IMG/VR virus record: IMGVR_UViG_3300025151_000307
Coordinates: 1 to 23,565 of that record
Direction: 5' to 3' (one strand)
DNA: 23,565 nt
DNA from: a virus
In this document: in pieces, positions 2,384-23,565 of the stretch
How the letters are laid out: every line of letters starts with the position of its first letter
Numbering within the stretch: the stretch's first letter is position 1
The notes under the pieces: generated by a model
What the model was told of the DNA's origin: nothing
The model's input: the letters and a program-made list of their open reading frames with translations, nothing else
Database searches by the model: none
Made by a program: the position numbers and the translations under genes

Positions 2384-5300
2384 ATGGTAGGTTATGCAAC
2401 TGTTGGTAAATGGGCGGCCGCCCCGCTAATTAGATGGGCATTAACTACATTTGTTGGAGCCGCCGCGGCGGAGGCATGGCTACGTGAAAATGGTTATGAT
2501 TGGGCGGCTAATTGGATTGCAAATAACAGTGATGAAATAGACAAGTATTACACACAAGACGAACTGTCTGATGTGTTAGCATTGCCCAAAGATGGCGACG
2601 TGAGAGTGACTGATGATGGCATCACACAAGTTTATAATGCAGACCTCAACAAATGGCAAACAGATTACACAGGTTCCTACAACTCAGGGGTAGCATCTGC
2701 AATTGAATCACAACCAACCTACAGCAATGCGGCCAAAAGAATAAGGAAAAAATTAACACCAAAACCAGTAGAGCCTATAACCAATGCTAATAATATTGAT
2801 ATTGCAAACAGTTTACCTTCTCAGTCACATGTGCAGGCTCATGACATTGTGAATAACAGTCCAGTATTTGACCAAATTGAACGACCTCAGCAAAAAGCCA
2901 TAATTGAAAAATTGAATCGCGACAATGTGGCCTTTCAAAACAAATTAGGATTGTTGAACGAAAACGCACCAACCTACAGTGGTGGCGCATCATTGAAAAG
3001 CCAACCATTAGTTAGAAAAAATTTTCCAACCAACACAGTTTATCCTGGGGGAGCAACAAAAACAAGAACAAAACTTTTGAATCAACCAAACACCTACAGT
3101 GGAGCGGCATCGCAAACAAGGACCAAACTGGCACCAAGGTCTTCGGTGTACGATCGTGGCACTAGATATGAAAATTACAATAATGTTGTAAGAGTACCAC
3201 CAGTAGCCACAACCCAATATGATGGATCGCAAAACGCTCAATATAGAGATTCCCGTGTAGTAAACCGAATTACACCAGCTTCAAATACCAAAGTAGTTGA
3301 TGCCAACGCTTTAAGAACAGATGAAGCGTACAGGACGCCTGTGGCTGTACAAACAAACGCCGCACAGATTGATGCAAGAAACAGAATAGTTGGTGCAGAG
3401 TCAACCACTGCTCAACCAAACTATCCAAACAATCCTCCTCCAGGCATGATGGAGGCACGGGAGTATGAGGCCAACACCAAAAACAGTGACGTTCAAGTGC
3501 AAACACCAGATGAACAGGTAGAAAACAAAAAAACTGAATCTGCAACGTCTAAGAACAAAAAATTCAAAGTAAATCATCCACCACCAGGAGAAAATGTGTT
3601 GCATGAGTACGTCACATACACCTACGATGCTCGATTATCTGCATTGCCACAAGAATTTTACATCAACGACGAACTTAAATTAGCGAGCAATACCAACATA
3701 ATAATAAGGTCATCAGGACTAGGACAGCAAAAAGCTGAAGCTCCTAAAAGATCAGGCAAAGGCAAAGGACCAAGTCGAAGTCAACAGCGTGTGAAAAAAG
3801 CAGGTGGCGGTGCAGATGCAGTATACAGTTTAGCACCTGGCTCTCAGCTTAATTCACACTTTGGACAAATCACTCTAAACAGCATCATAGGATTGAACAG
3901 CCATACAAATGTGAGTAACGTTCATGGATTAACATTTGAAGTGTTTGAACCATATGCAACATCACTGTTGGATGATCTACATGATGCCCAAGTGGCCATT
4001 GGCAATGACAACTATTTGCATTCACCCTATTTGTTGACCATTGACTTTCATGGCATGGATGATAATGGAGTACCGACTAAAGCAATCACCACTAGATACT
4101 TTCCTATCTTAATTGTAAACTGTGATTTTGATGTGACTGGTGCTGGCACCACTTACAACTTTGAAGCAGTTCCGTTTAACGCAAGTACTATGAATGACAA
4201 CATCAAGTATACTCAAGACCCAGTCACACTCCGAGGAGAAACTGTGAGAGAATTGTTTAATGACTTAGAAACACAGCTGAACGAACAGTTTGCCGCTAAA
4301 GATGAAAATCGAAAGTATTTCATCAGAGGTGGTACAAGTTTTGACGACATGGGAGGCCCATCATCTTGGGATATCTTGTCTGCTACAATTGGTCACGATA
4401 GTACCACAGCATTATCAACAGCATATGCTCCTGAACTCACAGAAGAAGGCAGGAAATATGTGAAAGATTTAGAAAGTCAAGTCGACTATCAGCAAGGGTT
4501 CAAGGATATTCCTCCATTATCAGATTTGGCAGGTGTAGATGGCAATCTAACAAGAAGAACTTACACATTCAACAAAGGTGTAGCAATTACTTCTATCATC
4601 GAAGCAATTGTTGAAAGCAGTGATTACATCACCAAACAAGTTAATAATCCAGAACAGTTTGTGCAAAACATCAATGGAGATGGTCAAGTGCCTTGGTACA
4701 ATGTTGATTACAAGTTTGCTGTGTCAGAAGATGGCGAAAGCGAATTTAGTTTTTTCACCTATTCATATATGGTAGATGCCTCTAATGTGGTCAACACCAG
4801 CACACTTAAAAGTTCTTTCAACAAACCAATTGCAAGAGCATATGAATACATCTATACTGGTGCAAACAGAGACATATTAAGTTTTGATATTCAATATAAC
4901 TTTGCGTTCTTCCAAGCATTACAGGATTTGCCACAGCAGAGAAAAAACAAAACAGAAAATAGTAAAGGCAAAGGACCAAGCAGAGCACAGCAACGACTAG
5001 GTAAAGTTGCTGAAGTTAAAGGAAAAACTCCTGTCAAATTAGAAAGATCAATTTCAGACAAATCTAATCCATCAGCAGGAACTGAAAGTTCAGGTGAAGA
5101 TAGAGATCAACTTTCTATAATCAAAGAAGTTTTGCAAAATCCAGGCGCAGATTTATTGAACTTAGATCTTGAAATACTAGGAGACCCGTTTTACCTACAA
5201 CAAACTGATTTTAGATATGGAGATTATGCCATGGACACAACAGTTCCATTCACACTTAATGATGGATCAATATATGACAAAATGGGCGAAGTCTATGTCA

Positions 5301-6094: not shown

Positions 6095-7983
6095 TGGCTA
6101 GACAAACACACACCACAAAGTCACCATCAGATTTCACAGGTGCTCAGAAATTCAGACCCACAGCCAACTCATTATACATTGGCAGAGTCAAAAGAACTGC
6201 TGATCCACAACGCATGGGGCGTGTGCAAGTGCATGTGAATGCATTTGGAGGCATAGAAAATGATCCAAACACATGGATATGGTGCAGATACCTCACACCT
6301 TTTTATGGTGTCACACCAGGCACATTGACCACCGCAGGGTCCAATGACTGGAGCGAAAGCCAAAAATCATATGGTATGTGGATGCCTCCGCCAGATCTAA
6401 ACACACAGGTAGCTGTGATGTTTGATAGTGGAGATCTTGCTAAAGGTTACATCATGGGCTATCCAATGGATCAGTACATGAACACTATGATACCAGGCAA
6501 TCCATCTTCTAGAAGAAAATCTATTGATGAAGACTCAGAAGATTACGATGCTGAGCTGATTCAACAAAAAATTGCGTCAACACCAGTCACTGAATACAAC
6601 AAAGCACTTGATGTTGATACTGCAATTGCGGACGCTAGAAAACCAGTGCATCCATTTGTAGAAACACTGATAGAACAAGGATTGGCTACTGATAATGTGA
6701 GAGGCAATACCTCATCATCAGCAAGACGCGAATCTCCATCGCAGGTTTTTGGAATAAGCACACCAGGTCCTGTTGATTTCTTTGGACAAAAATCTGGACC
6801 AAAAGTTGGAAATTTTCACGGCACTATTTTAGACAAGGATGGCACAGTCAAAGCAAGAGCAAATTCAAGACAAGGTGGACATACATTTGTTATGGATGAT
6901 GGCACACCGCAAGATTTTGTTGCAGGAGAAATACAAAATCCATCTGTGAACGAGCTGGTTAGATTACGCACACGCTCAGGACATCAAATTTTGATGCATG
7001 ACACAGAAGGATTGATTTACATAGGCACCTCAAATGGCAATGCATGGATAGAACTAACGTTGGATGGCAAGATTGATATATTTGCAAATGATTCTGTAAG
7101 TGTGCATACTAAAGCAGATTTTAATTTCAAAGCAGATAGAGATGTAAACATTGAAGCTGGCAGAAACATCAACATGAAAGCTGTGGGCGAGTGGGCCAAA
7201 GACACAAATCCTTTCCATGATGGCAAAATTGACGAAGTGTCAACTGGCGCAATACGATTTGAATCAAGTGCAGAAACACAATTGAAAGTAGGTGGCGAAG
7301 GTAGAATTGAAGTTGGCGGTGATTTCAAATTAGAGTCATTGCAAGGTCACATTGACATCAGAGCATCGCAAGTAGCAGAAACTGTGGATGCCAACCTTAC
7401 AGTCACAAGAAAAGATGTACGCATTCATGCCACAGGTGATGTTGATATACTGGCAGGCAATTCAGAAAACAAAGACGACAGCCTAACATCAAACATCAAC
7501 TTACAAGCTGTGACTGATGCAGATAGTGTGGTGGGCAACTTTAATTTAAAAACATCAGGCAAAGTGAATGTAGATAGTGTTTTAGATACCACACTCAAAA
7601 GTGATGCAAAATTACAAGTTTCTAACGCTGGCACAGACATAGATGGTGGCAATATCAACTTTAACAGCGGCACAGTTTCTGCAACCACTGCCGGCGAAAG
7701 TCGTTTGGCTGACAAAGCCACAATTAAACCTTTGCTCACACATTTGTTGGCACAAACAGACACCCAATATGTGTTTCCATACCAGACAGACAGTCGTTCT
7801 GTACAGGCAGATGGTGAAGTGTTGGTGGTACAGAGTATAATGAAAAGAGTACCGGTGCACGAAGAATGGGTTGACCACGAAGACAAAAATAGAGTGCTTG
7901 CCAGTGTAGACAGAACAGACAGGGAATACAAAGAACCAGATGGTGATAAAAAAGCCGCAAATGACCTGAGCACAAGGTTGTAA
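6094..7983 (+). CDS. 5: Baseplate central spike protein gp5 without a lysozyme domain
   Basis: The 629-aa product has the two outer parts of T4 gp5. Residues about 24-125 form the OB-fold (SLYIGRVKRTADPQRMGRVQ, then WIWCRYLTPFYG and GDLAKGYIMGYPMD). From about 235 there is the spike: HGTILDKDGTVKARANSRQGG, SGHQILMHDTEG, then strands repeating at about eight residues (FNFKADRDVNIEAGRNINMKA, GDVDILAGN) that fit the triple-stranded beta-helix. T4 gp5 carries a lysozyme between these parts; here residues about 130-230 are short, Ser/Asp-rich and show no such catalytic domain. Gp5 therefore probably acts as a mechanical spike only. Its ATG overlaps the hub stop by one base; AGGAG at 6079-6083 and GGGAG at 6086-6090 precede it. 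The PAAR tip gene follows 7 nt later. Confidence 0.85.
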   Translation: MARQTHTTKSPSDFTGAQKFRPTANSLYIGRVKRTADPQRMGRVQVHVNAFGGIENDPNTWIWCRYLTPFYGVTPGTLTTAGSNDWSESQKSYGMWMPPPDLNTQVAVMFDSGDLAKGYIMGYPMDQYMNTMIPGNPSSRRKSIDEDSEDYDAELIQQKIASTPVTEYNKALDVDTAIADARKPVHPFVETLIEQGLATDNVRGNTSSSARRESPSQVFGISTPGPVDFFGQKSGPKVGNFHGTILDKDGTVKARANSRQGGHTFVMDDGTPQDFVAGEIQNPSVNELVRLRTRSGHQILMHDTEGLIYIGTSNGNAWIELTLDGKIDIFANDSVSVHTKADFNFKADRDVNIEAGRNINMKAVGEWAKDTNPFHDGKIDEVSTGAIRFESSAETQLKVGGEGRIEVGGDFKLESLQGHIDIRASQVAETVDANLTVTRKDVRIHATGDVDILAGNSENKDDSLTSNINLQAVTDADSVVGNFNLKTSGKVNVDSVLDTTLKSDAKLQVSNAGTDIDGGNINFNSGTVSATTAGESRLADKATIKPLLTHLLAQTDTQYVFPYQTDSRSVQADGEVLVVQSIMKRVPVHEEWVDHEDKNRVLASVDRTDREYKEPDGDKKAANDLSTRL

Positions 7984-7990: not shown

Positions 7991-8287
7991 ATGCCCGGAA
8001 TAGTTAGAGTAGGAACAGATAAACATGTTGGACACGCTTCACCAACTCCCAACCCATTTCATAAGACTCCTTATGCAACAGGTGCCGCAAACGTCTTTGC
8101 TAATGGTGCCAAAGTTGTCAGAGTTGATGATACCACAGCCTGTACAGATCCTGCTACAGCAGGTTCTCCCAATGTGTTTGCAGAAGGCAAAGCTGTTCAT
8201 CGTCAAGGCGATGCCACAGGAGGCCACGGTTCGTGGGTAGCAAATAGAGCCGAAACCGGATCAGGAGATGTAATAGCAAATGGCTAA
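7991..8287 (+). CDS. PAAR-domain spike tip protein (gp5.4-like)
   Basis: The 98-aa product is a whole PAAR domain: VGTDKHVGH at the start, then the repeated pattern NVFANGAKVVRVDD and NVFAEGKAVHRQGD, with GSGDVIANG closing the chain. PAAR proteins form a small metal-bound cone that caps the gp5/VgrG spike. Possible metal ligands are His12, His15, His24, Cys51, His70 and His79; which ones bind cannot be told from sequence. T4 gp5.4 is also about 97 aa. Position directly after gp5 supports the role. The last codons overlap the next ATG by 8 nt. Confidence 0.85.
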   Translation: MPGIVRVGTDKHVGHASPTPNPFHKTPYATGAANVFANGAKVVRVDDTTACTDPATAGSPNVFAEGKAVHRQGDATGGHGSWVANRAETGSGDVIANG

Positions 8288-8909: not shown

Positions 8910-9392
8910 ATGGCAAAAGTAAAATTAGTAAAAACTACAACCAGTGATAGAATTGGCTCACCAATATCTATCAAAAATTATGTTGGATTTTCAACTGTAA
9001 ACAGGGATTTTGACAATAATGTGCTGTATGATTATGAACTAGCAAGAACAGATTTGCTCAACCATTTTCACATCAAAAAAGGTGAAAAATTAGAAAATCC
9101 TAACTTTGGCACAATCATATACGATTTGTTGTTTGAAAATTTTAGCCCTGACATCAGCAAAGCAGTAGAAGATGATGTGGTTGAAATAGTTGGTTATGAC
9201 CCACGTTGGCGACTAGACACACTTCAGATCGAAGGAGAAGAGCACGGGCTCAACATCAATCTTGAAATAACCTACACACCATTTAACATATCTGAAAATT
9301 TAAACTTGTTGTTCAATCAAGACTCACAAGCTCCAATTGTGTCATCTAACACAGAATCAGGCGCATCAAGCACTGGGTCATCAAGTTATTAA
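8910..9392 (+). CDS. 25: Baseplate wedge protein gp25
   Basis: The 160-aa product matches the GPW/gp25 family: DYELARTDLLNHFHIKKGEK (residues 41-60), NPNFGTIIYDLLFENFSPD (63-81) and the conserved GYDPRWRLDTLQI strand (95-107), where the family motif EPR appears as DPR. Gp25 joins gp6 and the sheath at the core of each wedge. T4 gp25 is 132 aa; the extra length here is the last 20 or so residues, a Ser/Gly-rich tail ending in GSSSY. The gene stands alone between two short gaps, each with a late-type box. It is directly upstream of gp6, the standard order 25-6-7. Confidence 0.9.
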   Translation: MAKVKLVKTTTSDRIGSPISIKNYVGFSTVNRDFDNNVLYDYELARTDLLNHFHIKKGEKLENPNFGTIIYDLLFENFSPDISKAVEDDVVEIVGYDPRWRLDTLQIEGEEHGLNINLEITYTPFNISENLNLLFNQDSQAPIVSSNTESGASSTGSSSY

Positions 9393-9433: not shown

Positions 9434-12400
9434 ATGGCAACTACTGATAGACAGAATTCGCTACTAATATCTCAAGATTGGCAAAAGATCTATAGATCAT
9501 TCCAACAAGCAGACTTTAGATCCTACGACTTTGACACAATTCGTAGAACAATGATTCAGTATTTGCGAAACAATTATCCAGAAGATTTCAACGACTACAT
9601 TGAATCATCAGAGTATCTTGCACTGATTGATCTTATTGCTTATCTAGGACAAAATCTCAGCTTTAGAATTGATCTAAATTCAAGAGAAAACTTTATTGAC
9701 ACAGCAGAACGTAGAGACAGTATTTTACGTTTGGCAAGACTGTTAAGTTATGTGCCTAAACGCAACAATGCGGCTAGTGGCCTTTTAAAAATTACAAGCA
9801 TAAGCACAACTGAATCTGTGACTGACTCAAACGGTGTTGATTTGTCAAATCAACTTATTTCATGGAACGACCCTACCAACTCAAATTGGTTCGAACAATT
9901 TATTGCTGTGTTAAATTCTTCATTGAGTGGCACACAAAAATTTGGAGCTCCTGCTATAAGAGATGTAATTGGTGGTGTAAACACGCATCAATACAAATTT
10001 GCAACAACTAACTCTGGTGTTCCAGTGTTTCAATTCACAAGAACAGTCAACTCACAACCAATGCCTTTTGAACTTGTAAGTGCAACATTTAGAAATCAAG
10101 ATTACATTTACGAAGAATCACCTATACCTGGCAACAGATTTGGCTTTTTGTATCGAGCAGATGGCAATGGCAATCAAAGTGCTAACACAGGGTTTTTTAT
10201 GTTGTTCAAACAAGGAGAACTTGGTTTTACTGAATTTAATGTTTCAGATCCATCACCTAACACCATTGTATCTATCAACAAAAATAATGTAAACAACAAT
10301 GATGTTTGGTTGTATGACCTTACAGATACTGGTACCTTAGACAACTTGTGGACCAAAGTGCCTGCAGTCACAGGCAACAATGTAATTTACAATTCAGTTA
10401 GCGAAACAGTAAGAAAATTATACAGCGTAAGCACCAGAGCAAATGATCAAATTGATTTAGTGTTTGCAGATGGTGTGTTTGCTGACAATCCAAAAGGCTT
10501 GTTTAGAAGTTATTACAGATCAAGTGTGAATGGTACTTTCACTGTTAGGCCACGTGATATGAAGAACATTTCAACATCATTTGAGTATATCAACAGCAAT
10601 GGGCAACTGAACACAATGACTGTGACAATGAGTTTAGAAGTCACAATTGATAATGCAACTGCAACAGAAAGCAACACTGATATCAAAACCAAAGCACCAC
10701 AAGCCTACTACACAAACAATAGAATGGTCACAGCTGAAGATTATCAAATTGTGCCGTTGACAGCATTTCAAGGTATTGCTAAAACAAAAGCAGTCAACAG
10801 AACTGCAAGTGGAATATCACGTTACTATGATTTGATAGATCCAACTGGAGCATACTCTTCTACTAATATTTTTGCAGATGATGGAATAATCTATAAAGAA
10901 ACAAATGAACCAACACTACAATTTTCATATACCAATTTGAATGATATTCAAAATTTTATTACAAACACCATAGAACCTTTGCTTGCCTCTGCGTCAGTGA
11001 GAGATTACTACTATGACAATTACACAAGGCAAAGCACAGGTACTGCATTTACTTGGAACCTAAGTACATCTGCAACCAACACATACACTGGCTACATCAA
11101 AGAAGATGGACCATTGGCTGTGGGAAATTTTTCGACTAGCAATTTAAAATATGTCAAACCAGGAGCACTTTTAAAATTCGAAGCTCCTAGTGGTTTCCAT
11201 TTTATGGACAACGGTACACTCATGGCAGGAGAAGCAGGGCACACTGGGTCAACCAACGTTTTATGGACGAAAGTACAAAAAGTTGTGCTGGATGGGTCAA
11301 ACTATGGCGAAGGCAATCTATCAGATGGCACTGGTCCAATCACACTTGTAGACAAAGTGCCAAGCACAGCAATTTTGACTGAGGTTATTCCTACCTATGC
11401 TACAGATATTGATGTATCAGTAGAAAACCTAATCATAGACGCTATGGATAACTTCAATAATTTTGGGCTAACTTACAATGTTGATACAAGTCAGTGGCAG
11501 TTTATTTCATCAAGTAACCTAAACGTTGACGGCAGTTTTGATTTAAGTGATCAAGGCAGTACAGCAACAACCAACAAAGATTCAAGTTGGTTATTCCAAT
11601 TCACGGCAACCAATGATGTGTACACAGTGAAATATAGACAAACGCTGTATGTGTTTAGATCTGCAACTAAAAATAGATTTTTTTACGACGAAGATCAAAA
11701 AATTTATGATCAGGCAAAAGGACAAGTTATAAATGATCAAATCAAAGTATTGAAATTCAATTCTATGCCTGACAGTAGTATACAATTAAAGCAAGATTAT
11801 TCGTTTGCTATAATAGGTAATAGGACTTTAAGTACAGGATTGAACGACAGCAGAGAAGTGTTGGTGTCTTTCAGAGATTCAGATGATGATGCGGCAGTTG
11901 ATAATCCAGACTTGTTTGATTCTGTTGTAGCACCAGGCAAAAATGTCACAGGCAAATATGTGTATTTTAAGAAAGACACAGCAAAAGCAACTGATTGGTA
12001 TGATTATGTCACGTCAAGTGATTTTGAATTAGCCGCTAGTGAAGGAGCAATTGTGGTTGCTGATTTCAACGATGGCCAATTGTTTCATTTGTATAATGAT
12101 GAACTAATCAAACAATACAACCAGACAACTGGCCAATTAGATGATGTCACATCAGACTATAAAGTGGTAGTAGGCAGAGAAGAAGTAAACTACAATTATG
12201 AACATGCGGCAAGATATGATCGCAGAATTGATCCTTCAGTGAGCAATCTAATTGATATCTACATGTTGACATCTGCTTATGATACAGAAATTCGCAATTG
12301 GATTAGAAATGGACAAATTGGTTTACAACCAAGCGTGCCAACATCAGCATCTTTGAGAACATCATACAATCCACTTTTAAGCACATATAAAAATGTGTCA

Positions 12401-12946
12401 GATGAAATTGTGTACAGACCTGTGAAATATAAATTGTTGTTTGGAAAAAATGCTGACGCAAGTTTACAAGCAACATTCAAAGTTATCAAAAATGATGGCA
12501 TTGTTATTACTGACAGTGATATTAAACTTTCAATTATAGAAGCAATTAATGAATACTTCTCAATTGATAATTGGACATTTGGGGATACATTTTTTTATAC
12601 AGAACTAGCAACATATATTCACAATTCACTAGCGCCTAAAGTTAGTTCGGTTGTAATAGTACCAAACAAACAAGAAAACGCATTTGGGTCACTGTTTCAA
12701 GTTGAATCAAACAGTGATGAAATTTTTATCAGTGGAGCAACTGTTGAAGATGTAGAAATTATTCCTTCTATATCACAAGGCAATCTCAAAGCAACAGGCA
12801 CAGTAGTCACAAGTGCTGTTGAGTCAGCAACCACAGTCACAGCAACGTCTGGTGGTAGTGCTGGCACAGAAACAACCACGGCAAGCACAACAACTACAAC
12901 CACAACACCTACAACTACAACAACATCTACAAGCTCAGGGTACTAA
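9434..12946 (+). CDS. 6: Baseplate wedge protein gp6
   Basis: The 1170-aa product starts with the gp6 N-terminal signature: SLLISQDWQKIYRSFQQADF, then RNNYPEDFNDYIESSEYLAL, DLIAYLGQNLSFRIDLNSRE and RDSILRLARLLSYVPKRNNA (residues about 8-118). T4 gp6 is 660 aa, so this version is much longer, with large beta-rich insertions such as the region near 550-700. Conserved-looking wedge sequence returns near the C-terminus (VKYKLLFGKNADASLQATFK, LSIIEAINEYFSIDNWTFGD, FYTELATYIHNSLAPKVSSV; about 994-1075). Gp6 forms the ring that joins wedges and meets gp25, gp53 and gp7. The chain ends in a Thr-rich tail. The next gene begins 3 nt after the stop. Confidence 0.88.
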   Translation: MATTDRQNSLLISQDWQKIYRSFQQADFRSYDFDTIRRTMIQYLRNNYPEDFNDYIESSEYLALIDLIAYLGQNLSFRIDLNSRENFIDTAERRDSILRLARLLSYVPKRNNAASGLLKITSISTTESVTDSNGVDLSNQLISWNDPTNSNWFEQFIAVLNSSLSGTQKFGAPAIRDVIGGVNTHQYKFATTNSGVPVFQFTRTVNSQPMPFELVSATFRNQDYIYEESPIPGNRFGFLYRADGNGNQSANTGFFMLFKQGELGFTEFNVSDPSPNTIVSINKNNVNNNDVWLYDLTDTGTLDNLWTKVPAVTGNNVIYNSVSETVRKLYSVSTRANDQIDLVFADGVFADNPKGLFRSYYRSSVNGTFTVRPRDMKNISTSFEYINSNGQLNTMTVTMSLEVTIDNATATESNTDIKTKAPQAYYTNNRMVTAEDYQIVPLTAFQGIAKTKAVNRTASGISRYYDLIDPTGAYSSTNIFADDGIIYKETNEPTLQFSYTNLNDIQNFITNTIEPLLASASVRDYYYDNYTRQSTGTAFTWNLSTSATNTYTGYIKEDGPLAVGNFSTSNLKYVKPGALLKFEAPSGFHFMDNGTLMAGEAGHTGSTNVLWTKVQKVVLDGSNYGEGNLSDGTGPITLVDKVPSTAILTEVIPTYATDIDVSVENLIIDAMDNFNNFGLTYNVDTSQWQFISSSNLNVDGSFDLSDQGSTATTNKDSSWLFQFTATNDVYTVKYRQTLYVFRSATKNRFFYDEDQKIYDQAKGQVINDQIKVLKFNSMPDSSIQLKQDYSFAIIGNRTLSTGLNDSREVLVSFRDSDDDAAVDNPDLFDSVVAPGKNVTGKYVYFKKDTAKATDWYDYVTSSDFELAASEGAIVVADFNDGQLFHLYNDELIKQYNQTTGQLDDVTSDYKVVVGREEVNYNYEHAARYDRRIDPSVSNLIDIYMLTSAYDTEIRNWIRNGQIGLQPSVPTSASLRTSYNPLLSTYKNVSDEIVYRPVKYKLLFGKNADASLQATFKVIKNDGIVITDSDIKLSIIEAINEYFSIDNWTFGDTFFYTELATYIHNSLAPKVSSVVIVPNKQENAFGSLFQVESNSDEIFISGATVEDVEIIPSISQGNLKATGTVVTSAVESATTVTATSGGSAGTETTTASTTTTTTTPTTTTTSTSSGY
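12866..12931 (+). repeat. Thr-rich simple-sequence tail of gp6
   Basis: Residues about 1145-1166 are almost all Thr, encoded by runs of aca, act and acc codons with one Pro. The DNA is an imperfect aca/acaact microsatellite, so length variation by slippage is plausible. The chain then closes with SSGY. Confidence 0.7.
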
Positions 12947-12949
12947 CGC

Positions 12950-15900
12950 ATGGCAACGGTTTCAAGAACAACCACTAAACTGTTACCAGAAGTATTCCAA
13001 ACTGAGCGTAATAAAAAGTTTATAAATGCAACACTTGATCAATTCACACAAAAAGGTGAACTTGAAAAGATCAGCGGTTTTGTTGGCTCAACCAAAGGTC
13101 CAAGTTTTAAAACCACAGACACTTATTTTACAGAGCTGAACAATGATAGACAAAATTATCAATTGGAACCAACTGTAAATTACAAAAAAGAAGATGGGAC
13201 ATATGCGTATCATTCTTCTTATATTGACTTGGTCAATCAAATTGATTTTTTAGGTGGCAACAAAAACAATCACCATAGACTATTCGAACAACAATCACAT
13301 TCATGGGCACCGCCTATAGATATTGACCCGTTAGTAAATTATAGAAACTATTATTGGATACCTGAAGGACCATCTCCTGTACAAGTAGACATCACTACAC
13401 CTGGTAGTGTTAGCACAATTAAAGTGACAAACAATGCCGCTGGTGCTTATAATTTTAGTGGATATACTGGAGATAATCCAACACTAACACTATACAGAGG
13501 CAACACATATAAGTTTGAGGTTGATGCTAAAGGACATCCATTTTATATCAAAACAGCAAAAACAGATGGATCAACATCACAGTATGAAAGTGATTCAAGT
13601 GGGTATGTGAGCGATAACGGTGCAGACAATGGCACAGTGACATTCACAGTACCTGCCACTGATGCAAGTAGTGCCTTGCCTGACATATTATTTTATGCGT
13701 GTGCAAATCACACATCAATGCAAGGATCGATTATCATTGAAGATTTAGATGATGGATATACCACAGTTGACATCACAACAGAAATACTAGGCAAAAAAAC
13801 TTACACCACTCCAGCTGGCGTAATTTTTGAAAATGGATTGAAAGTAAAATTTGCTGGCACTATACCTGCCACATACAAAAACAAAGAATACTATGTAGAA
13901 GGTGTAGGCAATGAGATTGTGTTGGTGTCAACAGATAGAATGATAGTGCCAGAGGGCTTTAGTAATGCAACACAGACTGTGGTATGGGATGCTGATGGCA
14001 CACAAAATTTTGATGATCAGGCATGGGATGCAGGGTTTGATGTACCTACCAACAAAGATTATTTTACAATAAACAGAAACAGCAAGGACTTTAATGCTTG
14101 GTCAAGATCAAACAGATGGTTTCATGAAAGTGTGCTAACCAACACAGCAACATACAATGGACACACAGTAAGTTTAGATCAAACCAAAAGAGCAAAGAGG
14201 CCTATCATACAATTTGAAGGCAACATTCAATTATATGATTATGGTAATGTTGGCCTTGAACCAATCACTGCATTAGAAACAGATTCTACAGATGCTTTAT
14301 CAAACATCAACGGTAAGGCTGGGCATTTTGTAGACGGTGTGAATCTCAAACAAGGTGATAGAGTAATTTTTGCAAATGATACTGATGCCACAGTTGCTGG
14401 TAACATTTACACAGTTGATTTTGTAAGCATTGACAGTTCAAGCATTCTTTATATCAATCTAGAACTAGCAGAACAACCTGTCGAAGGCAACACCGTTGTA
14501 ATTAAAGCAGGCACTGACAACAAAGGTAAACAGTATAGATTTAATGGCACTGGCTGGCAAGAATGTCAACAAAAAACAAAAGTGCAACAACAACCACTTT
14601 TTGCTTTGTACAACAGTTCAAAAGTTTCTTTGGATGATACCACAACCTATCCTGCATCTTCTTTCATGGGCAGTACAATATTTGAAGTAGAACAATCATC
14701 AACTGGAACCAAAGACACAGAATATGGCATACAAATTAAATATGAAAATTTTGGTACTGTGGCAGATATTGTGTTTAAAAATACACTTGCTGACACTAGT
14801 GTTTTGTATCTAGATGAGTCCAACGGACAAAAAGTTAAAATCAACACAGCGTCAGCTTACTATTTGAAAAACTTAATTGATGTAGAAGTAGGAGTAGACA
14901 GCACAGTAAACAACACAGTGACTACAGAACTGGGCAACCTTTGGTCAAAACAAATTAATTTAACCAAACAAAGAATTATTGATGTGGCTATTGTAAAAGA
15001 TGAATTGAAAATATTCAAACTGAAAAATTTTAACAAGGCAAGTGCAGTGATTGACTTAGAATTAAATGTGTTTGTAAACAATAAGAAGAAAACACTTACA
15101 ACAGATTATACTTTGGTCACACAAGGCAATGACATATTTGTGAAATTTGTGAACAGCAGGACAGTTGGTGATAAAATTGTATTTGAAAGTTATGCTCCAT
15201 TTGCCAGTAAAAATACTAATGGGCACTATGAGGTACCTGATAACCTTGAACGTAATGGATTGAACCAATCGATTGTGTCATTGACTTTAGGTGAAATAAA
15301 CAACCACGTGGCAAGCATTGCTGAAGAAGTGCCAGACTTTACAGGCACCCAACCGGGCAGTAATAACTTTAAAGATCTACCAAACACAAAAAAATATGGT
15401 AGACGTATTTTACAACATGCTGGATCAATACCTTTAGCAACCTACTGTTTAACAAACATCAATTCAAATTACATTGCATCAGTAAAATATGTTGCTAAAG
15501 AGTATCAACATTTTAAAAATTCATTTGTAAAAGCAATTGACAATGTCAAAGATGGCACAATTAGAGATCAAGTTGATGATATCATAAGAACAATATCACG
15601 TAACAAATCAGAAGAATTTGCTTTTTTCCACAGCGACATGATAGGATACAGTGAAAACTTTACAAAAATATCATACACAGTCACAGACAACAATAACAAA
15701 ACATATGGATTGAGTGCAGTATTTGACAAAGGCAAGCTAAGCCATCAAGCAGTTTATGTGTGGGTCAATGATGTGCAGGCAGTACATGGCACTGATTATA
15801 CTTTCGATTCTGATAGTGCTACGTTGACCTTTACAACTGCATACACTCTTGCAATTGGTGACAAGATTGAAATTAGAGAATATCCAAACACAGATGGATG

Positions 15901-18900
15901 TCATGTGCCACCAACACCAACTAAACTTGGTTTATATCCTGCATATGAACCAAAAACTTATGTAGACAACACCTATCGCAGTCAATTAAACGACTCAACC
16001 ACAACCACAGTTCTTCAAGGACATGATGGATCGTTGATCAAAGCATATGGTGATATCAGAGATGATTTGATTTTAGAACTGGAAAAAAGAATTTACAATA
16101 ACATCAAAGTCACATATGATGAAAAAAACTTGCATGATCTTAATCAACGTCCAGGCAAGTTTAGAAATAGTGCATGGACTGAATCTGAATGGGATGAAAT
16201 TGAAAAAAGACAGTTCATGGAATGGGCTGGCAACAATCAAATTGATTATACCACCCATGCATACTTTGATGCACAAGATCCGTTTACCTGGAACTACTCA
16301 CAAGTCGGTTCACGTGTAGATGGAAACAAACTTAAAGGTTACTGGCGTGGCATTTATAAAGACATGTACGACACAGATCGTCCACACACGCATCCGTGGG
16401 AAATGCTTGGCTTTGCAGAAAAACCATCTTACTGGGAATCAAGATATGGAGCGGCGCCTTACACATCAGGCAACGAAATTTTATGGAATGATTTAGAAAA
16501 CGGCTTTATTTCTTCAGGAGATAGAAAAGGAAACTATGACAAATACACACGTCCAGGTTTGAATGCATTCATTCCAGTTGATGACGCAGGCAATTTAAAG
16601 GCACCAAATGACTTTTTGGTGGATAGAATCATTGCAAATCAAAGTGAAATGAAAGCACAGTTCAAAGAAGGTGACCATGCGCCGGCTGAAACTGCTTGGA
16701 GACGATCTTCTGATTATCCTTTTGCTACACAAATTATAAATGCACTGACATCTCCTGCAAGGTACTTTGGCGTTTTATGGGATACAGCAAGGATATTTCA
16801 AAATCCAGCTGGACAATATGTTTACAGCACCACAGGAACAGCAGTACAACCAAAAGATTTTGTGTTTTATGCACAAGATTACACAGATGCCGATGGCGAA
16901 TCACAAGATTATGCAGGTGCAGGGTACCATGTGTTCATACTTGAATATCTCAAAGGCAAAAATTTAGACCAAGACACCAACTTTATCACGCCAATAAAAA
17001 ATTTACGTTTGAATTTGGCTTACAAACTAGGTGGATTTACAGACAAAACAAACCTAAAAGTAATTGCAGATTCAGTCAGTCCAGGTTCTACTAGCAGTAG
17101 CGTGTTTATACCACCTGAAGATTACACATTATTATTGCACAAATCAACACCTGTGGTGACTGCAAAATATTCTGGTGTGATCATACAAAAAACTGACACT
17201 GGATTCAAAGTAATTGGGTATGATCCTTACAATAGGTCGTTCCAAATCTTCAAACCAAGACAGACACAGGTCAGTGGCAATCTTGCTGTGGGTCAAACCA
17301 CTGAAGAATTTTACAATTGGCAACAAGATGGCTTTTACGTGGCTGGGTCTTTATTGAGAAATGATGATGTATTTTATAGAGTAAACACAACATTCACTGC
17401 TGGCACATCTTTTGATGAAACAAATCTAACTCAGTTAGGTTCTGCACTACCATTACAAGGAGGAGTATCAGTACCTAAGTATAATTTATTCGATACAGTT
17501 GCAACCACAGTTCCATATGGCACTGAATACCGCACAAAAACAGAAGTATCAAACTTCATACAAGGTTATGAACAACATTTGAAGTCAGTAGGGTTTAGTT
17601 TTGACGGATTTTCTTCAGATCTATCAACTAATACTGATTGGAGTTTGAGTATCAAAGAATTTTTATTCTGGTCAACACAAAATTGGGCAAGTGGCACAGT
17701 CATTGCTTTATCACCAGCATCAGAATCACTGAAATTAAACAACACTTCAGGTGTGGTAGATACATTGCTTGACCCAATCGAAGGATATCAAGTGCTTCAA
17801 CAAGAAGACCTAGGCATTCCACTTAATGATCTAAACGTGATGAGAGAAGGCAACGAAACTGTACTCACTACAAGACAGGAAACAGATGGAATATATTATG
17901 CTAAATTTAACGTGGTACAAAAAGAGCATGTGTTGATACTTGAAAACAGTACTGTGTTCTCAGATGTAATGTATGATCCTGCACTAGGTTTTAGACAAGA
18001 AAGAATAAAATTGACAGGTTTCAAAACTGCTGATTGGAATGGTGATTTGTATGCTCCAGGGTTCATGTTTGATGCGGCTGAAATTGAAGATTGGATATCA
18101 AATAAAGATTATAATCTAGGTGACGTTGTAATATATCAAACCAGGTATTACATTGCTAACAAAAGGCACACTGGCACACAAAAATTTGAAAATGCAAACT
18201 GGACATTGCGAGGTGAAAAACCAGTTTCGTCTTTGATTCCAAACTTAGATTATCGCACAGCACAATTTGAAGATTTTTACAATCTAGACACAGATAATTT
18301 TGATGAAGGACAGCAAACGTTAGCTAGGCATCTAATAGGCTATCAACCAAGACAATACTTAGATAATCTAGGCATAGACGAATCTTCACAATACAAGTTT
18401 TATCAAGGATTTATTAAAGAAAAAGGCACAATTAACAGCATTACAAAAATGCTTAATGCACAATTTAGAGCAGGTGAAACAAACAAATACAATGTATTTG
18501 AAGAATGGGCGTTTAGAATAGGTGGATATGGTGGCACAAGGACACAGCAAGACATAGAATTCGCTCTTGATAGCAAATCATTTGGTGCAAACCCTCAGAT
18601 TGCAAAATTTGTGTCAGGTTCTGCAATAAATTCGCAAGATCCTGCATATCAAATATTAAAAAAGAATTTAAGAATTGTGCCTGAAGATTACGACAGCAAA
18701 CCTTTTATTGAATATGACGGTGCCAAACACAATGGACGACATAGTGCAATGAGTGTGTTTAAATTTAAAAATGCTGGTCCAATAAACTTAGATTATGTTG
18801 ATGAAACATATTTGACATTAAATGATTTACTGTCATCAACATCATACAATCTTTTACAAGTTGGAAGTTATGTTTGGGTAGCAGAAAACAAAAATAAAAC

Positions 18901-21900
18901 ATGGGATTTATTTAGGATTACAGAATCTGGTTTGAGAATCAAAAGATTTGACAAGTATGAGGATGATGGATCTAGTCTGTTGGGTGCAAATCAAATTAGA
19001 ATCACAACAGATAAACCGCATGGATTAGCCAAAGACGATATAATTGTTATGCAGGATGTTGATGCACAAATTGACGGCATATACCAAATACCAGCACGAG
19101 ATCAAATGGATTCAACTGTTAATGATCCAAAAGAATTTAGTTTATTCCTTAATTTTTTACCAGAAGAAGATGGGTCGTCTATGACAAAAGATGGCAAACT
19201 GCTTAAATTAGTGTCAGTGAAACTAAGCTCAACTGAAAAAATTAACGATTCAGCTCCACCACGTGGTTGGCGTAAAAACGATATTGTGTGTGTGACAAAC
19301 AATTATGAAACTAACACATCGGGCAAATGGGTAAATTATCAAAACACATACCCATACTTAGAAAACACCAGTCTATTCGATTTTAATGTTTCAGCTCATT
19401 CGGAATATGGACATGCTATTGCTACTACCAAAGATGGAGCAAGTGTGTTTGTGTCAGCGCCAGGTGATCAAGGAGGAAAACTGTATCTTAACTCAAGAAG
19501 TCAATACAATGATTTTCCAGACATATTTGGAATTTTTCCTTCGCATACATCAACAGGTGCAACTTTATCAGGAACAGTCACAGTGACATCTGGCAGTACA
19601 TCAGTCACAGGCAACAACACTCTTTTCCTAACTGAACTTGCACCAGGAGACAGAATTAAATCACCATTGGACAACTATTACACAGTAATTTCGATTGAGA
19701 GTGACATTGCAATGACTGTTGAAGAAGAAGGACTAGCAACTGAATCATCAGGTTCATTTAAACTAGCACAATTTGATAGATATGGCAGTGAACTTGCTCT
19801 ATCATGTGATGCTGAAGATACATTGTTGGTATCAGCACCATTTGCCTCAGGATTTGTTAAAGTAGTCACATTAGATGGAGGTGACTTTAGTACTGCACCT
19901 TCGTTTGTGATTGGCAATGCTGTGGACATTTACAGCACAGATGAAAGCACTAAACTGGGTGATGGCACAATTAAATCTTGGAACAGTGACACATATGAGA
20001 TGGGCATCAACACAACGGTACAATTGAATGCCAATTATAAAATAGCATCAACAAGTTCAGATGGTAGCACCACAGTGATAGCATTTGTTCAAGGAGCAGA
20101 ATCAACACTCACTGGTGAAGGATATGCTGAAATACTAACAAAAGACACTGGAGGACTTTGGGGATTCAAACAATCAGTCACAGGCAGAACACCTGCAAGT
20201 AATGACAATTTTGGCTCAGCTCTAGCAATCAGTGGCGATAGCAATTATGCTTTCTTTGGTGTGCCAGGCATAAACGAAGTTGAAGTTTACAAAAAGAACA
20301 CAGGTGGATCATATGATTATTTGACCACAATATCTGCACCAGATATTTTGACTGGAGAAAAATTTGGGTCAAGCATAGCAACTGACAACACAGGGTCAAT
20401 AGTGGCAATTGGCGCTCCATTGCATGGCATAGTAGGTGATGATTCTACAAGCGGTAATGGTGCTGTGTTTGTTTACGCTAACAATGATGATCAATTCTTA
20501 AGAATCAGCAAACTAATACCAAACACAAGACAAGTAGCTATGGAATTTGGTCACAGTATTACAATGAATGGCGCAGGCACTAAAATTGTAGTAGGCGCTC
20601 CAAAATACAATCAAGGCACATCAGACAGCACACTCACAAGTATACCTGATCAAGGCAAAGTATTTGTGTATGCAAGTGCAAATGAAAATGTTATTGGAGA
20701 TGGATCAACAACTGCTTTCACATTATCTTTTGCTCCTACTGATGAAAATGACATTGGTATATTCCAAACGTTGCCTGACAGCACAACTAGTTGGTTAATT
20801 CCAGCAACTGTTTTTGCTGACACTACCACAGCAACAGCTGACGACACAGAATTCACAGCAGACACAGTTAACTCAGGCACTCCATGGTATGTGGATGGTT
20901 CTACAACAACACTAAACTTTACTACTGCACCTGCAAAAAATTCAGTGCTTACAATTTATAGATGGCCAGAGCAACAAGGCATAGTTTCAAATGCTGTAGG
21001 TGAATACAACAGATTTGGTGAAAAAGTTGTGTTGCATCCAACAAAAGATACTCTTGCTGTGTCAAGCAAAAATGCAACGTTTAACAAAACAATAACATTT
21101 GATAAATTTGCTGACGATGGATCAACGCTTACAGGCGAAACAACATTTGATTATGACACCACAAGATTTGTTGATGCAGAATCTGAGGCAGGCAATGTAA
21201 GAGTGTATGGATTATATGGTGATTACTATGTGTTAGATCAGCAAATGAATTCAAGCAAGATTGACAGTGGTGATAAATTTGGTCAAGGACTTGCAATATC
21301 TGATAGATCAGTATTTGTTGGTGCACCAAAAGATGATACCAAAGCCACAGACAGTGGATTGTTTATTGACTTTGCAAAAAAGAAAGCTACAACAGTTGGT
21401 TGGGAAACTATTTCAGAACAAGGTGAGCTGATAGATCCTTCGAGGATAAAACAAAACTATTTGTTTGATACAGTTAGCAATCAAACTATCGGCTTTATAG
21501 ATTGGATTGATCCTATCAAAGGCAAATTGCCTGGACCTGCAAATGCTGAACTTGAATATATCATGGATGAAGATCCTGCATATTATAATGAAGTTGATCT
21601 ATCTGATATCAACAATATAAATGCAGTAACTCTTGATTTTGCTAAAGCATGGAAGGCTACTAATGTTGGTAAATTATGGTTGGACACTAGCAGAATGTAT
21701 TATCTTTGGTATGAACAAGGATCAGCAGAATACAGAAATGCCAATTGGGGAAGATTGTTTCCTGGTGCTAGTGTTGGGGTTTATGAATGGACAGAATCTG
21801 ACTACACACCACAAAGGTATGCTGAATTAGTTGGCACACAAGAAGGTGATACCCTTGGGTTGAGTGGGTCTCCTAGAGCAAAAACTTATTACAGTCAAAA

Positions 21901-23565
21901 CACAGTATGGGACGTTGAGACACAAACATTTAAAACAAAATATTATTTCTGGGTAGGCAACAAACAAAGCGTACCAAATCTTCCGACAAGGACAATAAGT
22001 GCGGCAAACATTGCTAATTTAATTGTAGATCCAATTAACGAAGGCTATTCTTACACAGCATTTATAAAAAATGATGCTATTTCGTATGCTAATATAGGTA
22101 CATCATTATCAAGATCAGACATAGTACATCACGTAGAATGGAGTACAATTGAAAATCCATTACCAAAACACGGCGAATGGATGTTGGTCAAAGAAGGTGA
22201 TGAAAAAAGTAAACCTAACACATTATTAAAAAGAAAACTGATTGACTCATTGGTAGGCACTAGGACAACTGGAGCAAGTGTACCAGACATAACATTGCCA
22301 CAAACACAAAGGTATGGTATAGAAGATGGCCAGTCATTGATACAAAACAGAGTCACTGTCCTTACTGCGGTATTACAAAATATAAATGCTGTATTGAAAC
22401 AACACAAGATTGTCTCAAGCAAAAAATTAGGCAAGTTCGATCTTGAAGAAGAACAACCAACATCAGCAAGTGGTGAATATGATTTCAAAGTTGCGTCATA
22501 CACTGAATTAAATTTTTTAAACACTTTCAACACACCAACACTTGCTACAGGTTCAGTTGCGTTGGTTGAATCAGATTCAGAATCCAATGGCTATTGGGCA
22601 CTATATCAATACCAAGCAGACAAAACATGGAACAGAACAAGAGTTCAGTCATACGACACCAAACAGTATTGGCAATACAAAGACTGGTATGCAAGTGGAT
22701 ACTCAAAAGATACTATCGTCAATCACAACGTTGCAACTGAAGATTTATTGCTACCACATGATTCAGATGTTGATATTGGCGAAACTGTAAAAATTACAAC
22801 ATCATTTGATGGTAATTTTAGATTGGTGCTTAAAACAAAAACAGCAACTTATGAAGAAATAGGTTTAGGCAATGCAACAATAGAAATAAAATCTTTGGCT
22901 TATGCTTATGAGGACAATGCTTTAGGATATGGTAGTGATACATATGACCAAAACAACTTTGATCAACAACCTACCACAGAATTAAGAAACATACTTGAAG
23001 GCGTGATAGATGACATTTACATCGATGACCTTGAATTAGAATACAACAATTTATGGTTCTTTGCAGTACAACAAATTTTAGCAGAACAACTGTATGTAGA
23101 CTGGGCAATCAAAACATCATTCCTTACTGTTGAAAATGATCTAAAAACTTTGTCAACTGAGCCTACGTACAAACCAGATCAACAAGAAGCATTGCTTGAT
23201 TACATTGATGAAGTAAAACCTTTCCACACAAAAGTGAGACAGTACAGGGTCAACTATGCAAAGACCGATACATTTGGATCAGACATGACAGACTTTGACA
23301 ATGCGGCTTATTGGGACACTGGCACAGAATCCTACAAAGCACCAGATGTTGATGAAAGTGCATTTGATGTACGTTATGAATCAGCACCAAGCAAAATTTA
23401 CAAAGACAACTACAAACTAAGTGTACTCAAAGTTATTGTTGCAGATGGTGGGTCTGGCTACACTGAAGCTCCTGTTGTGACAATATCAGGTGGCGGTGGC
23501 ACAGGTGCTAAAGCAACTGCTTTTGTGTCCGATGGTTCAGTGTCAAAAGTGACTGTGACTGATGG
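12950..23565 (+). CDS. 7: Giant baseplate wedge protein gp7-like, runs off the right edge
   Basis: One frame from the ATG at 12950 is open to the window end: at least 3538 codons, no stop seen. I read the codons through to about 16560 and checked many later segments in the same frame. The start (TTTKLLPEVFQTERNKKFIN, ATLDQFTQKGELEKISGFVG) and the DPLVNYRNYYWIPEGP segment fit the large gp7-type wedge proteins of marine T4-like phages; T4 gp7 is 1032 aa. Visible parts: cupredoxin-like domain (about 150-265), a core with QYKFYQGFIKEKGT, a carbohydrate-binding-like module (about 1715-1758), seven FG-GAP units (2145-2810), a segment with YIDEVKPFHTKVRQY (3418-3432) and a Gly-rich repeat from 3495. 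In T4, gp7 starts wedge assembly and links to gp10 and gp8. AGGG (12937-12940) is a weak ribosome site; with a 3-nt gap, coupling to gp6 is likely. Calling it gp7 depends on order and family resemblance. Confidence 0.8.
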   Translation, partial: MATVSRTTTKLLPEVFQTERNKKFINATLDQFTQKGELEKISGFVGSTKGPSFKTTDTYFTELNNDRQNYQLEPTVNYKKEDGTYAYHSSYIDLVNQIDFLGGNKNNHHRLFEQQSHSWAPPIDIDPLVNYRNYYWIPEGPSPVQVDITTPGSVSTIKVTNNAAGAYNFSGYTGDNPTLTLYRGNTYKFEVDAKGHPFYIKTAKTDGSTSQYESDSSGYVSDNGADNGTVTFTVPATDASSALPDILFYACANHTSMQGSIIIEDLDDGYTTVDITTEILGKKTYTTPAGVIFENGLKVKFAGTIPATYKNKEYYVEGVGNEIVLVSTDRMIVPEGFSNATQTVVWDADGTQNFDDQAWDAGFDVPTNKDYFTINRNSKDFNAWSRSNRWFHESVLTNTATYNGHTVSLDQTKRAKRPIIQFEGNIQLYDYGNVGLEPITALETDSTDALSNINGKAGHFVDGVNLKQGDRVIFANDTDATVAGNIYTVDFVSIDSSSILYINLELAEQPVEGNTVVIKAGTDNKGKQYRFNGTGWQECQQKTKVQQQPLFALYNSSKVSLDDTTTYPASSFMGSTIFEVEQSSTGTKDTEYGIQIKYENFGTVADIVFKNTLADTSVLYLDESNGQKVKINTASAYYLKNLIDVEVGVDSTVNNTVTTELGNLWSKQINLTKQRIIDVAIVKDELKIFKLKNFNKASAVIDLELNVFVNNKKKTLTTDYTLVTQGNDIFVKFVNSRTVGDKIVFESYAPFASKNTNGHYEVPDNLERNGLNQSIVSLTLGEINNHVASIAEEVPDFTGTQPGSNNFKDLPNTKKYGRRILQHAGSIPLATYCLTNINSNYIASVKYVAKEYQHFKNSFVKAIDNVKDGTIRDQVDDIIRTISRNKSEEFAFFHSDMIGYSENFTKISYTVTDNNNKTYGLSAVFDKGKLSHQAVYVWVNDVQAVHGTDYTFDSDSATLTFTTAYTLAIGDKIEIREYPNTDGCHVPPTPTKLGLYPAYEPKTYVDNTYRSQLNDSTTTTVLQGHDGSLIKAYGDIRDDLILELEKRIYNNIKVTYDEKNLHDLNQRPGKFRNSAWTESEWDEIEKRQFMEWAGNNQIDYTTHAYFDAQDPFTWNYSQVGSRVDGNKLKGYWRGIYKDMYDTDRPHTHPWEMLGFAEKPSYWESRYGAAPYTSGNEILWNDLENGFISSGDRKGNYDKYTRPGLNAFIPVDDAGNLKAPNDFLVDRIIANQSEMKAQFKEGDHAPAETAWRRSSDYPFATQIINALTSPARYFGVLWDTARIFQNPAGQYVYSTTGTAVQPKDFVFYAQDYTDADGESQDYAGAGYHVFILEYLKGKNLDQDTNFITPIKNLRLNLAYKLGGFTDKTNLKVIADSVSPGSTSSSVFIPPEDYTLLLHKSTPVVTAKYSGVIIQKTDTGFKVIGYDPYNRSFQIFKPRQTQVSGNLAVGQTTEEFYNWQQDGFYVAGSLLRNDDVFYRVNTTFTAGTSFDETNLTQLGSALPLQGGVSVPKYNLFDTVATTVPYGTEYRTKTEVSNFIQGYEQHLKSVGFSFDGFSSDLSTNTDWSLSIKEFLFWSTQNWASGTVIALSPASESLKLNNTSGVVDTLLDPIEGYQVLQQEDLGIPLNDLNVMREGNETVLTTRQETDGIYYAKFNVVQKEHVLILENSTVFSDVMYDPALGFRQERIKLTGFKTADWNGDLYAPGFMFDAAEIEDWISNKDYNLGDVVIYQTRYYIANKRHTGTQKFENANWTLRGEKPVSSLIPNLDYRTAQFEDFYNLDTDNFDEGQQTLARHLIGYQPRQYLDNLGIDESSQYKFYQGFIKEKGTINSITKMLNAQFRAGETNKYNVFEEWAFRIGGYGGTRTQQDIEFALDSKSFGANPQIAKFVSGSAINSQDPAYQILKKNLRIVPEDYDSKPFIEYDGAKHNGRHSAMSVFKFKNAGPINLDYVDETYLTLNDLLSSTSYNLLQVGSYVWVAENKNKTWDLFRITESGLRIKRFDKYEDDGSSLLGANQIRITTDKPHGLAKDDIIVMQDVDAQIDGIYQIPARDQMDSTVNDPKEFSLFLNFLPEEDGSSMTKDGKLLKLVSVKLSSTEKINDSAPPRGWRKNDIVCVTNNYETNTSGKWVNYQNTYPYLENTSLFDFNVSAHSEYGHAIATTKDGASVFVSAPGDQGGKLYLNSRSQYNDFPDIFGIFPSHTSTGATLSGTVTVTSGSTSVTGNNTLFLTELAPGDRIKSPLDNYYTVISIESDIAMTVEEEGLATESSGSFKLAQFDRYGSELALSCDAEDTLLVSAPFASGFVKVVTLDGGDFSTAPSFVIGNAVDIYSTDESTKLGDGTIKSWNSDTYEMGINTTVQLNANYKIASTSSDGSTTVIAFVQGAESTLTGEGYAEILTKDTGGLWGFKQSVTGRTPASNDNFGSALAISGDSNYAFFGVPGINEVEVYKKNTGGSYDYLTTISAPDILTGEKFGSSIATDNTGSIVAIGAPLHGIVGDDSTSGNGAVFVYANNDDQFLRISKLIPNTRQVAMEFGHSITMNGAGTKIVVGAPKYNQGTSDSTLTSIPDQGKVFVYASANENVIGDGSTTAFTLSFAPTDENDIGIFQTLPDSTTSWLIPATVFADTTTATADDTEFTADTVNSGTPWYVDGSTTTLNFTTAPAKNSVLTIYRWPEQQGIVSNAVGEYNRFGEKVVLHPTKDTLAVSSKNATFNKTITFDKFADDGSTLTGETTFDYDTTRFVDAESEAGNVRVYGLYGDYYVLDQQMNSSKIDSGDKFGQGLAISDRSVFVGAPKDDTKATDSGLFIDFAKKKATTVGWETISEQGELIDPSRIKQNYLFDTVSNQTIGFIDWIDPIKGKLPGPANAELEYIMDEDPAYYNEVDLSDINNINAVTLDFAKAWKATNVGKLWLDTSRMYYLWYEQGSAEYRNANWGRLFPGASVGVYEWTESDYTPQRYAELVGTQEGDTLGLSGSPRAKTYYSQNTVWDVETQTFKTKYYFWVGNKQSVPNLPTRTISAANIANLIVDPINEGYSYTAFIKNDAISYANIGTSLSRSDIVHHVEWSTIENPLPKHGEWMLVKEGDEKSKPNTLLKRKLIDSLVGTRTTGASVPDITLPQTQRYGIEDGQSLIQNRVTVLTAVLQNINAVLKQHKIVSSKKLGKFDLEEEQPTSASGEYDFKVASYTELNFLNTFNTPTLATGSVALVESDSESNGYWALYQYQADKTWNRTRVQSYDTKQYWQYKDWYASGYSKDTIVNHNVATEDLLLPHDSDVDIGETVKITTSFDGNFRLVLKTKTATYEEIGLGNATIEIKSLAYAYEDNALGYGSDTYDQNNFDQQPTTELRNILEGVIDDIYIDDLELEYNNLWFFAVQQILAEQLYVDWAIKTSFLTVENDLKTLSTEPTYKPDQQEALLDYIDEVKPFHTKVRQYRVNYAKTDTFGSDMTDFDNAAYWDTGTESYKAPDVDESAFDVRYESAPSKIYKDNYKLSVLKVIVADGGSGYTEAPVVTISGGGGTGAKATAFVSDGSVSKVTVTD
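13397..13744 (+). other. Cupredoxin-like domain inside gp7
   Basis: Residues about 150-265 show the cupredoxin pattern: NPTLTLYRGNTYKFEV, GHPFYI, then GTVTFTVPATDA, FYACANHTSMQG and SIIIED. His196, Cys251, His254 and Met257 match the His-Cys-His-Met set of type-1 copper sites. A similar domain occurs in other marine phage and bacterial surface proteins. Copper binding is inferred from the ligands only. Confidence 0.7.
18092..18220 (+). other. Carbohydrate-binding-like (CBM5/12-type) module inside gp7
   Basis: Residues about 1715-1758 read W-x4-DYNLGDVVIYQTRYYIANKR, then HTG...KFENANW and LRG. The W...Y..GD.V.Y...YY.A...H......F....W pattern resembles small chitin-binding-type modules. It could equally be a structural beta hairpin. 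Confidence 0.45.
19382..21375 (+). other. Seven FG-GAP repeats (integrin-type beta-propeller) inside gp7
   Basis: Seven units of the form [FY]G-x-x-[IVL]-x-[IVLMT]...VxxAP start at residues 2153 (YGHAIATTKDG), 2278 (YGSELALS), 2421 (FGSALAISGD), 2472 (FGSSIATD), 2533 (FGHSITMNGAG), 2689 (FGEKVVLHP) and 2777 (FGQGLAIS). Most are followed by an AP or VP turn (VSAPGD, VSAPFA, GVPG, IGAPLH, VGAPKY, VGAPKD); the sixth has SSKN instead. Seven is the blade number of the integrin alpha propeller. Inserts lie mainly in units 1, 2 and 5. I see no clear DxDxDG calcium loop. Confidence 0.75.
23432..23565 (+). repeat. Start of a Gly-rich GGSGYT repeat region in gp7
   Basis: From residue 3495 the sequence reads VIVADGGSGYTEAPVVTISG, then GGGTGAKATAFV and VSKVTVTDG. 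This unit (GG.GY..AP.V.I.GGGGTGA.A.A.V....V..V.V) often occurs in tandem in marine phage structural proteins. The window ends inside the first unit, so further copies are only expected. Confidence 0.55.

Follow-up and report, generated by a model that had tools for sequence, protein, structure and literature searches.

An integrin-type FG-GAP propeller inserted into a giant baseplate protein of jumbo myophages

In contractile-tailed phages, contact with the host is usually credited to fibres and spikes, and carbohydrate-binding inserts are well known in phage virion proteins. FG-GAP propellers are already known in viruses from sequence: cyanophage S-TIM5 (H6WG31), Atu_ph07 (A0A2L0UZX4) and giant viruses have proteins of the fold described below (Foldseek E values to 5.6e-22). 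Judged by their listed names, these are separate proteins, unlike the propeller of the present locus, which is inserted in the protein that follows gp6.

The DNA analyzed here, called the window, is a stretch of 23,565 nucleotides from the IMG/VR virus record IMGVR_UViG_3300025151_000307. It contains the baseplate operon of a jumbo myophage and ends in a giant open reading frame (ORF), which contains the propeller (Table 1). In the open-access literature, where coverage is partial, we found neither work connecting FG-GAP with phage baseplates, tail fibres or jumbo phages nor an earlier description of a clade-wide integrin-type propeller grafted next to gp6.

Table 1. Features of the window and of the giant baseplate protein; residues are those of the giant protein
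Feature	Nucleotides	Residues	Strand	Evidence or remark
gp53-like	2084-2383
Large virion protein	2384-6094
gp5-like hub/lysozyme	6094-7983
PAAR	7991-8287
gp25	8910-9392
gp6	9434-12946
Giant baseplate protein, gp7 position	12950-23563		+	phrog_10938 match, gene order
CBM_5_12-like module	18077-18217	1710-1756	+	Pfam match below cut-off, structural match
Small beta-barrel, endosialidase/E1 FCCH-like	18917-19216	1990-2089	+	structural match
Seven-bladed FG-GAP/integrin-alpha-type beta-propeller	19355-21379	2136-2810	+	Pfam, PDB profile, AlphaFold2 (AF2), fold search, blade HMM
N-terminal strand YLENTSLF, before blade 1	19355-19378	2136-2143	+	AF2 model strand
Blade 1	19406-19534	2153-2195	+	AF2 model, alignment of relatives, blade HMM
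Insert 1, D1-A2 loop	19535-19780	2196-2277	+	about 82 aa, low pLDDT
Blade 2, strands A-B	19781-19837	2278-2296	+	AF2 model, alignment of relatives, blade HMM
Insert 2, B2-C2 loop inside blade 2	19838-20119	2297-2390	+	about 94 aa
Blade 2, strands C-D	20120-20182	2391-2411	+	AF2 model, alignment of relatives
Blade 3	20210-20335	2421-2462	+	AF2 model, alignment of relatives, blade HMM
Blade 4	20363-20515	2472-2522	+	AF2 model, alignment of relatives, blade HMM
Blade 5, strands A-C	20546-20674	2533-2575	+	AF2 model, alignment of relatives, blade HMM
Insert 3, C5-D5 hairpin	20675-20968	2576-2673	+	98 aa, partly low pLDDT
Blade 5, strand D	20969-20986	2674-2679	+	AF2 model, alignment of relatives
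Blade 6	21014-21244	2689-2765	+	AF2 model, alignment of relatives, blade HMM
B-C loop of blade 6	21068-21193		+	holds TTFD
Blade 7	21278-21379	2777-2810	+	AF2 model, alignment of relatives, blade HMM
Blade HMM matches		YGHAI 2153, RYGSE 2277, NFGSA 2420, KFGSS 2471, EFGHS 2532, RFGEK 2688, KFGQG 2776

Fold, blades and inserts of the propeller

Residues 2136-2810 form one complete seven-bladed FG-GAP propeller of the integrin type. The Pfam family FG-GAP_2 (PF14312) matches the whole giant protein in four stretches with an E value of 6.4e-17 (61.9 bits against a cut-off of 23) and the propeller segment alone with 2.9e-21; a search of NCBIfam gave no match. When a profile built from 44 relatives is compared with the PDB sequences, the hits are almost only integrin alpha chains, the best of them integrin alpha-4 at 2.7e-17, which bears out the integrin likeness noticed in the first-pass annotation. 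The AlphaFold2 model of the region (711 aa; pLDDT 76, pTM 0.78) contains the strands of seven blades, four in each, with pLDDT below 50 only in inserts 1 and 3 and at the edges of insert 1. In a Foldseek search of the PDB, integrin heads score best (E 4e-11), and after structural realignment the top 50 PDB entries are without exception heads of integrin alpha chains. Their Z scores are 35-38.5, with an rmsd of mostly 2.7-3.2 A across about 350-380 residues and a sequence identity of 15-19%.

The blades can also be counted individually. For this purpose a blade HMM was made from blades 3, 4, 5 and 7 of distant relatives, leaving out the window and the five relatives closest to it; on the window it gives exactly seven matches, in order. 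Four of the seven reach 16.8-32.3 bits. Taken singly, blades 2, 3 and 6 score 2.5-4.9 bits and do not exceed the best shuffled score of 5.2, but the FG glycines on which they are placed recur in 42-44 of the 44 relatives; each of the seven FG glycines is kept in 40-44 of them. A count of eight, in which blade 2 would be followed by a degenerate extra blade, was weighed and rejected: the stretch 'YAEILTK...WGFKQSVT' belongs to blade 2 as its C-D half, because relatives with a bare propeller align to it and have an invariant glycine there. The seven FG units of a complete propeller that the first-pass annotation had seen are thus real, and the result is neither fewer than six blades, nor more than eight, nor a non-propeller fold. 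The segment had been put at 19382-21375 (residues 2145-2809), which is the right place; its two ends lie slightly farther out (Table 1). In the model, the strand before blade 1 occupies residues 19-26, and the integrin alignments begin at model residue 17, which is residue 1 of the integrin chain. This strand probably closes blade 7 in the integrin-like 'velcro' manner.

The inserts of the window were located by alignment to relatives whose propeller is bare. Of the three large inserts originally placed between blades 1-2, 2-3 and 5-6, the first does lie in the loop joining blades 1 and 2, the second is inside blade 2 and the third lies in the hairpin between strands C and D of blade 5. The upper, ligand-binding face of an integrin propeller is made up of the 4-1 and 2-3 loops, and its lower face of the 1-2 and 3-4 loops. 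Because of this topology, inserts 1 and 2 are assigned to the upper face and insert 3 to the lower, so that the projection of all three from one face, as first suggested, is not retained. Insert 1 matches the tail-fibre family phrog_1980; that match was also considered as FG-GAP, a reading given up since it falls within the insert instead. The upper B6-C6 loop contains a TTFD motif (21140-21151, residues 2731-2734) that is nearly invariant across the 44 relatives, and a second TFD precedes it in the same loop. The calcium-binding motif D-x-D/N-x-D/N-G, which integrin alpha subunits have in the A-B loops of several blades, is absent from the window's propeller.

Hypervariability of the blade inserts, also raised in the first-pass annotation, was looked for by identity among three close relatives and was not found: the inserts are 43-60% identical to the window and the propeller core 57-63%. 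Only insert 3 (43-45%) is clearly, if mildly, more variable than the core. In the same relatives the downstream neighbour is 55-57% identical and the N-terminal 1200 residues 72-83%. All three inserts are common to five close relatives (propeller 53-60% identical), and inserts of other lengths occur in the propeller loops of relatives. The upper- and lower-face loops are about equally variable by entropy, with no signature of either face. Identity to distant relatives is 20-30% in the propeller and 34-41% in the upstream flank; judged by these values, the propeller diverges faster than that flank.

The giant protein and its insertion site

The giant ORF encodes 3538 aa inside the window, its 3' part being cut off by the contig end; in four close relatives with longer ORFs, the protein is about 4780-4800 aa long. 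Its match to phrog_10938, a family of RaK2-type virion structural proteins, reaches 1203 bits in three stretches. The gene order is gp25, gp6, giant ORF, and T4 likewise has gp7 directly after gp6. The first-pass annotation named the product gp7, a wedge protein. Its place in a baseplate operon, immediately after gp6, agrees with that name; homology to T4 gp7 is unsupported, as hhalign comparison of 16 jumbo-phage sequences with six T4-like gp7s gives no significant match, whether the whole protein or segments of it are used, and gene order is the sole basis of the label. We therefore refer to it as the protein in the gp7 position. On the minus strand, opposite to the baseplate operon, positions 174-1220 encode a late-transcription sigma factor (phrog_12791, E 1e-75).

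Both flanks of the propeller are homologous to jumbo-phage virion proteins. The record of the PA5oct homologue of the giant protein bears an ESI-MS/MS note, and mass spectrometry of CBB virions identified the CBB homologue, CBB_236, from 21 unique peptides (PMC5259590 Table 4).

Two further modules lie just upstream of the propeller, in a segment whose predicted model is poor (pTM 0.37) and whose realigned structural matches are confined to CBM-like and FCCH-like parts. The CBM_5_12-like module structurally matches chitin-binding domains and the receptor-binding proteins of phages Milano and 7-7-1; farther upstream, a second CBM_5_12-like stretch matches chitinase A1 (E 0.0018) in a profile of seven isolates and the window. 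The small barrel resembles the phi92 and K1F endosialidase barrels, the phi92 match (Z 8.2, rmsd 2.5, 82 residues aligned) being borderline and from a low-confidence model. E1_FCCH is found in 2 of the 55 uncultured relatives of the best-match sample. Near the start of the protein, positions 13415-13759 (residues 156-270) hold a cupredoxin-like insert with an H...C-x2-H-x2-M pattern; it is about 32-44% identical to domains of cyanophage tail-fibre proteins, and the homologues in RaK2 and the Vibrio phage lack this stretch or have a shorter version of it.

Relatives were collected from viral_contigs by a pattern scan, for which the upstream flank was represented by an alignment of two sequences. 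This gave 556 confirmed relatives, of which the best 80 were kept, so that the sample is skewed toward the window's nearest lineages. The corresponding two-sequence alignment of the downstream flank found seven relatives in viral_contigs. As a single query, the propeller found no relative in viral_contigs and only a weak match in the phage collection, and alignments of seven sequences were too divergent for use in pattern scans. In all, 86 loci with both flanks were compared, seven isolates included.

The propeller is a whole-domain insertion between conserved flanks. In PA5oct the two flanks adjoin each other, and the empty site reads 'WAVAVVSGSTITNIRSRQNLVD'; in RaK2, CBB and the Vibrio phage they lie close together with no propeller. 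Between the flanks lie 189-304 aa in RaK2, CBB, PA5oct and the Vibrio phage; SCTP-2 has 492 aa there, the uncultured relatives about 600-1500 aa, and Atu_ph07 and Phosso about 1500 aa. The phages with and without the propeller therefore differ by gain or loss of the whole domain at one place. FG-GAP_2 is detected at the propeller site, at E 0.001 or better, in 46 of 55 distinct uncultured relatives of the best-match sample. A conserved yet removable domain of this kind would provide an insertion site tolerant of whole domains.

Other material can be seen at or near the same site. The stretches of about 1500 aa in Atu_ph07 and Phosso (L003:6780-11333 and L004:6774-11306 in our numbering of loci) contain GxGYxxxPxV repeats by eye and match no Pfam family above its cut-off. 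The Phosso protein in the gp7 position has no propeller; a separate giant protein of this Sinorhizobium phage, gp108 (L001:6372-16526), has 19 FG-GAP_2 stretches (E 7e-173). Near the site in Salicola phage SCTP-2, a stretch that looked LamG-like by eye (L005:6079-7557) was dropped as a candidate, having no Pfam support. Two loci (L085:11984-16450 and L058:11957-15832) have 1200-1500 aa at the site with CBM_5_12-like modules inside, and in L085 a very large insert apparently occupies the B2-C2 region of the propeller, again by eye.

Possible roles of the propeller

The first-pass annotation suggested a host- or fibre-binding role, with host contact perhaps not limited to tail fibres. At roughly even chances, the propeller serves as a host-surface adhesin borne by the baseplate beside the tail fibres. 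Copies of it would be displayed at the rim of each baseplate, where the upper-face loops with inserts 1 and 2 could bind a surface partner, most likely a glycan or protein of the host envelope or capsule; the chitin-binding-like module, the endosialidase-like barrel and the propeller might together make up a surface-binding platform. The adhesin reading fits the integrin-type fold with its seven blades, the insertion as a whole domain, the varied loop inserts and the glycan-binding-like neighbouring modules, the match of insert 1 to a tail-fibre family, the presence of homologues in virions (CBB, PA5oct) and the lower conservation of the propeller relative to the upstream flank. Weighing against it are the lack of hypervariability in close relatives, the equal variability of upper and lower loops, the absence of integrin calcium motifs from the window's propeller and the nearly invariant TTFD, for which a fixed partner fits as well as a host receptor. 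If the propeller is an adhesion domain, it would offer a defined place for testing a part played by the baseplate in sensing or gripping the host; the baseplate itself, beyond the tail fibres, may grip surfaces. More tentatively, the propeller of this uncultured jumbo-myophage clade could be a baseplate-borne receptor whose upper-face inserts set specificity, in parallel to the alpha-I domain of integrins.

The near-invariance of TTFD also fits docking or a shared chemistry, and a second possibility, distinctly less probable than adhesion, is that the propeller is a structural platform on which a virion protein (tail fibre, pin or whisker) docks, rather than the host. Its framework is kept across very divergent relatives, and insert 1 has a counterpart in a tail-fibre family. 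In T4, domains of gp7 touch the fibre connector gp9 and the pin protein gp10 (PMC3004832). A docking platform is harder to reconcile with RaK2, CBB, PA5oct and the Vibrio phage, which have no propeller at the site, and with an upstream flank more conserved than the propeller itself. It is improbable that the domain is a passive spacer or decoration with no specific ligand: the family does accept other inserts (cupredoxin-like, CBM-like and the roughly 1500 aa of the Atu_ph07 type), but retention of the seven-blade framework and of TTFD despite strong divergence argues for selection beyond bulk. A last reading takes the FG repeats for a product of chance or low complexity, or for a propeller with another number of blades. 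It can draw on the weakness of single units (blades 2, 3 and 6 being within shuffle noise) and has almost no chance of being right in view of the Pfam and integrin-profile E values (6e-17 and 2.7e-17), the Z of 35-38.5 to integrin heads and the retention of the seven FG glycines by 40-44 of 44 rows.

Comparison with known baseplate proteins and propellers

Like T4 gp7, the giant ORF directly follows gp6; it differs in being more than three times longer and in its PHROG family (10938, against 964 for T4 gp7). The giant virion proteins of RaK2, CBB and PA5oct (phrog_10938) are homologous to it over most of its length, but have no propeller at the site. As for Pfam FG-GAP_2 repeats, the four matching stretches are well over the curated cut-off; what sets this example apart is that there is exactly one seven-unit propeller, in a baseplate protein, with three domain-sized inserts.

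Compared with an integrin alpha subunit, the phage propeller is embedded in a virion protein, has no calcium-binding motifs and no integrin beta-subunit setting, and is only 15-19% identical in sequence. It nevertheless has the seven blades, the FG...GAP framework and the strand before blade 1 of the integrin alpha propeller, and its large inserts in loops assigned to the upper face are comparable to the insertion of the alpha-I domain. A fold known for ligand binding in integrins is thereby linked to phage virions.
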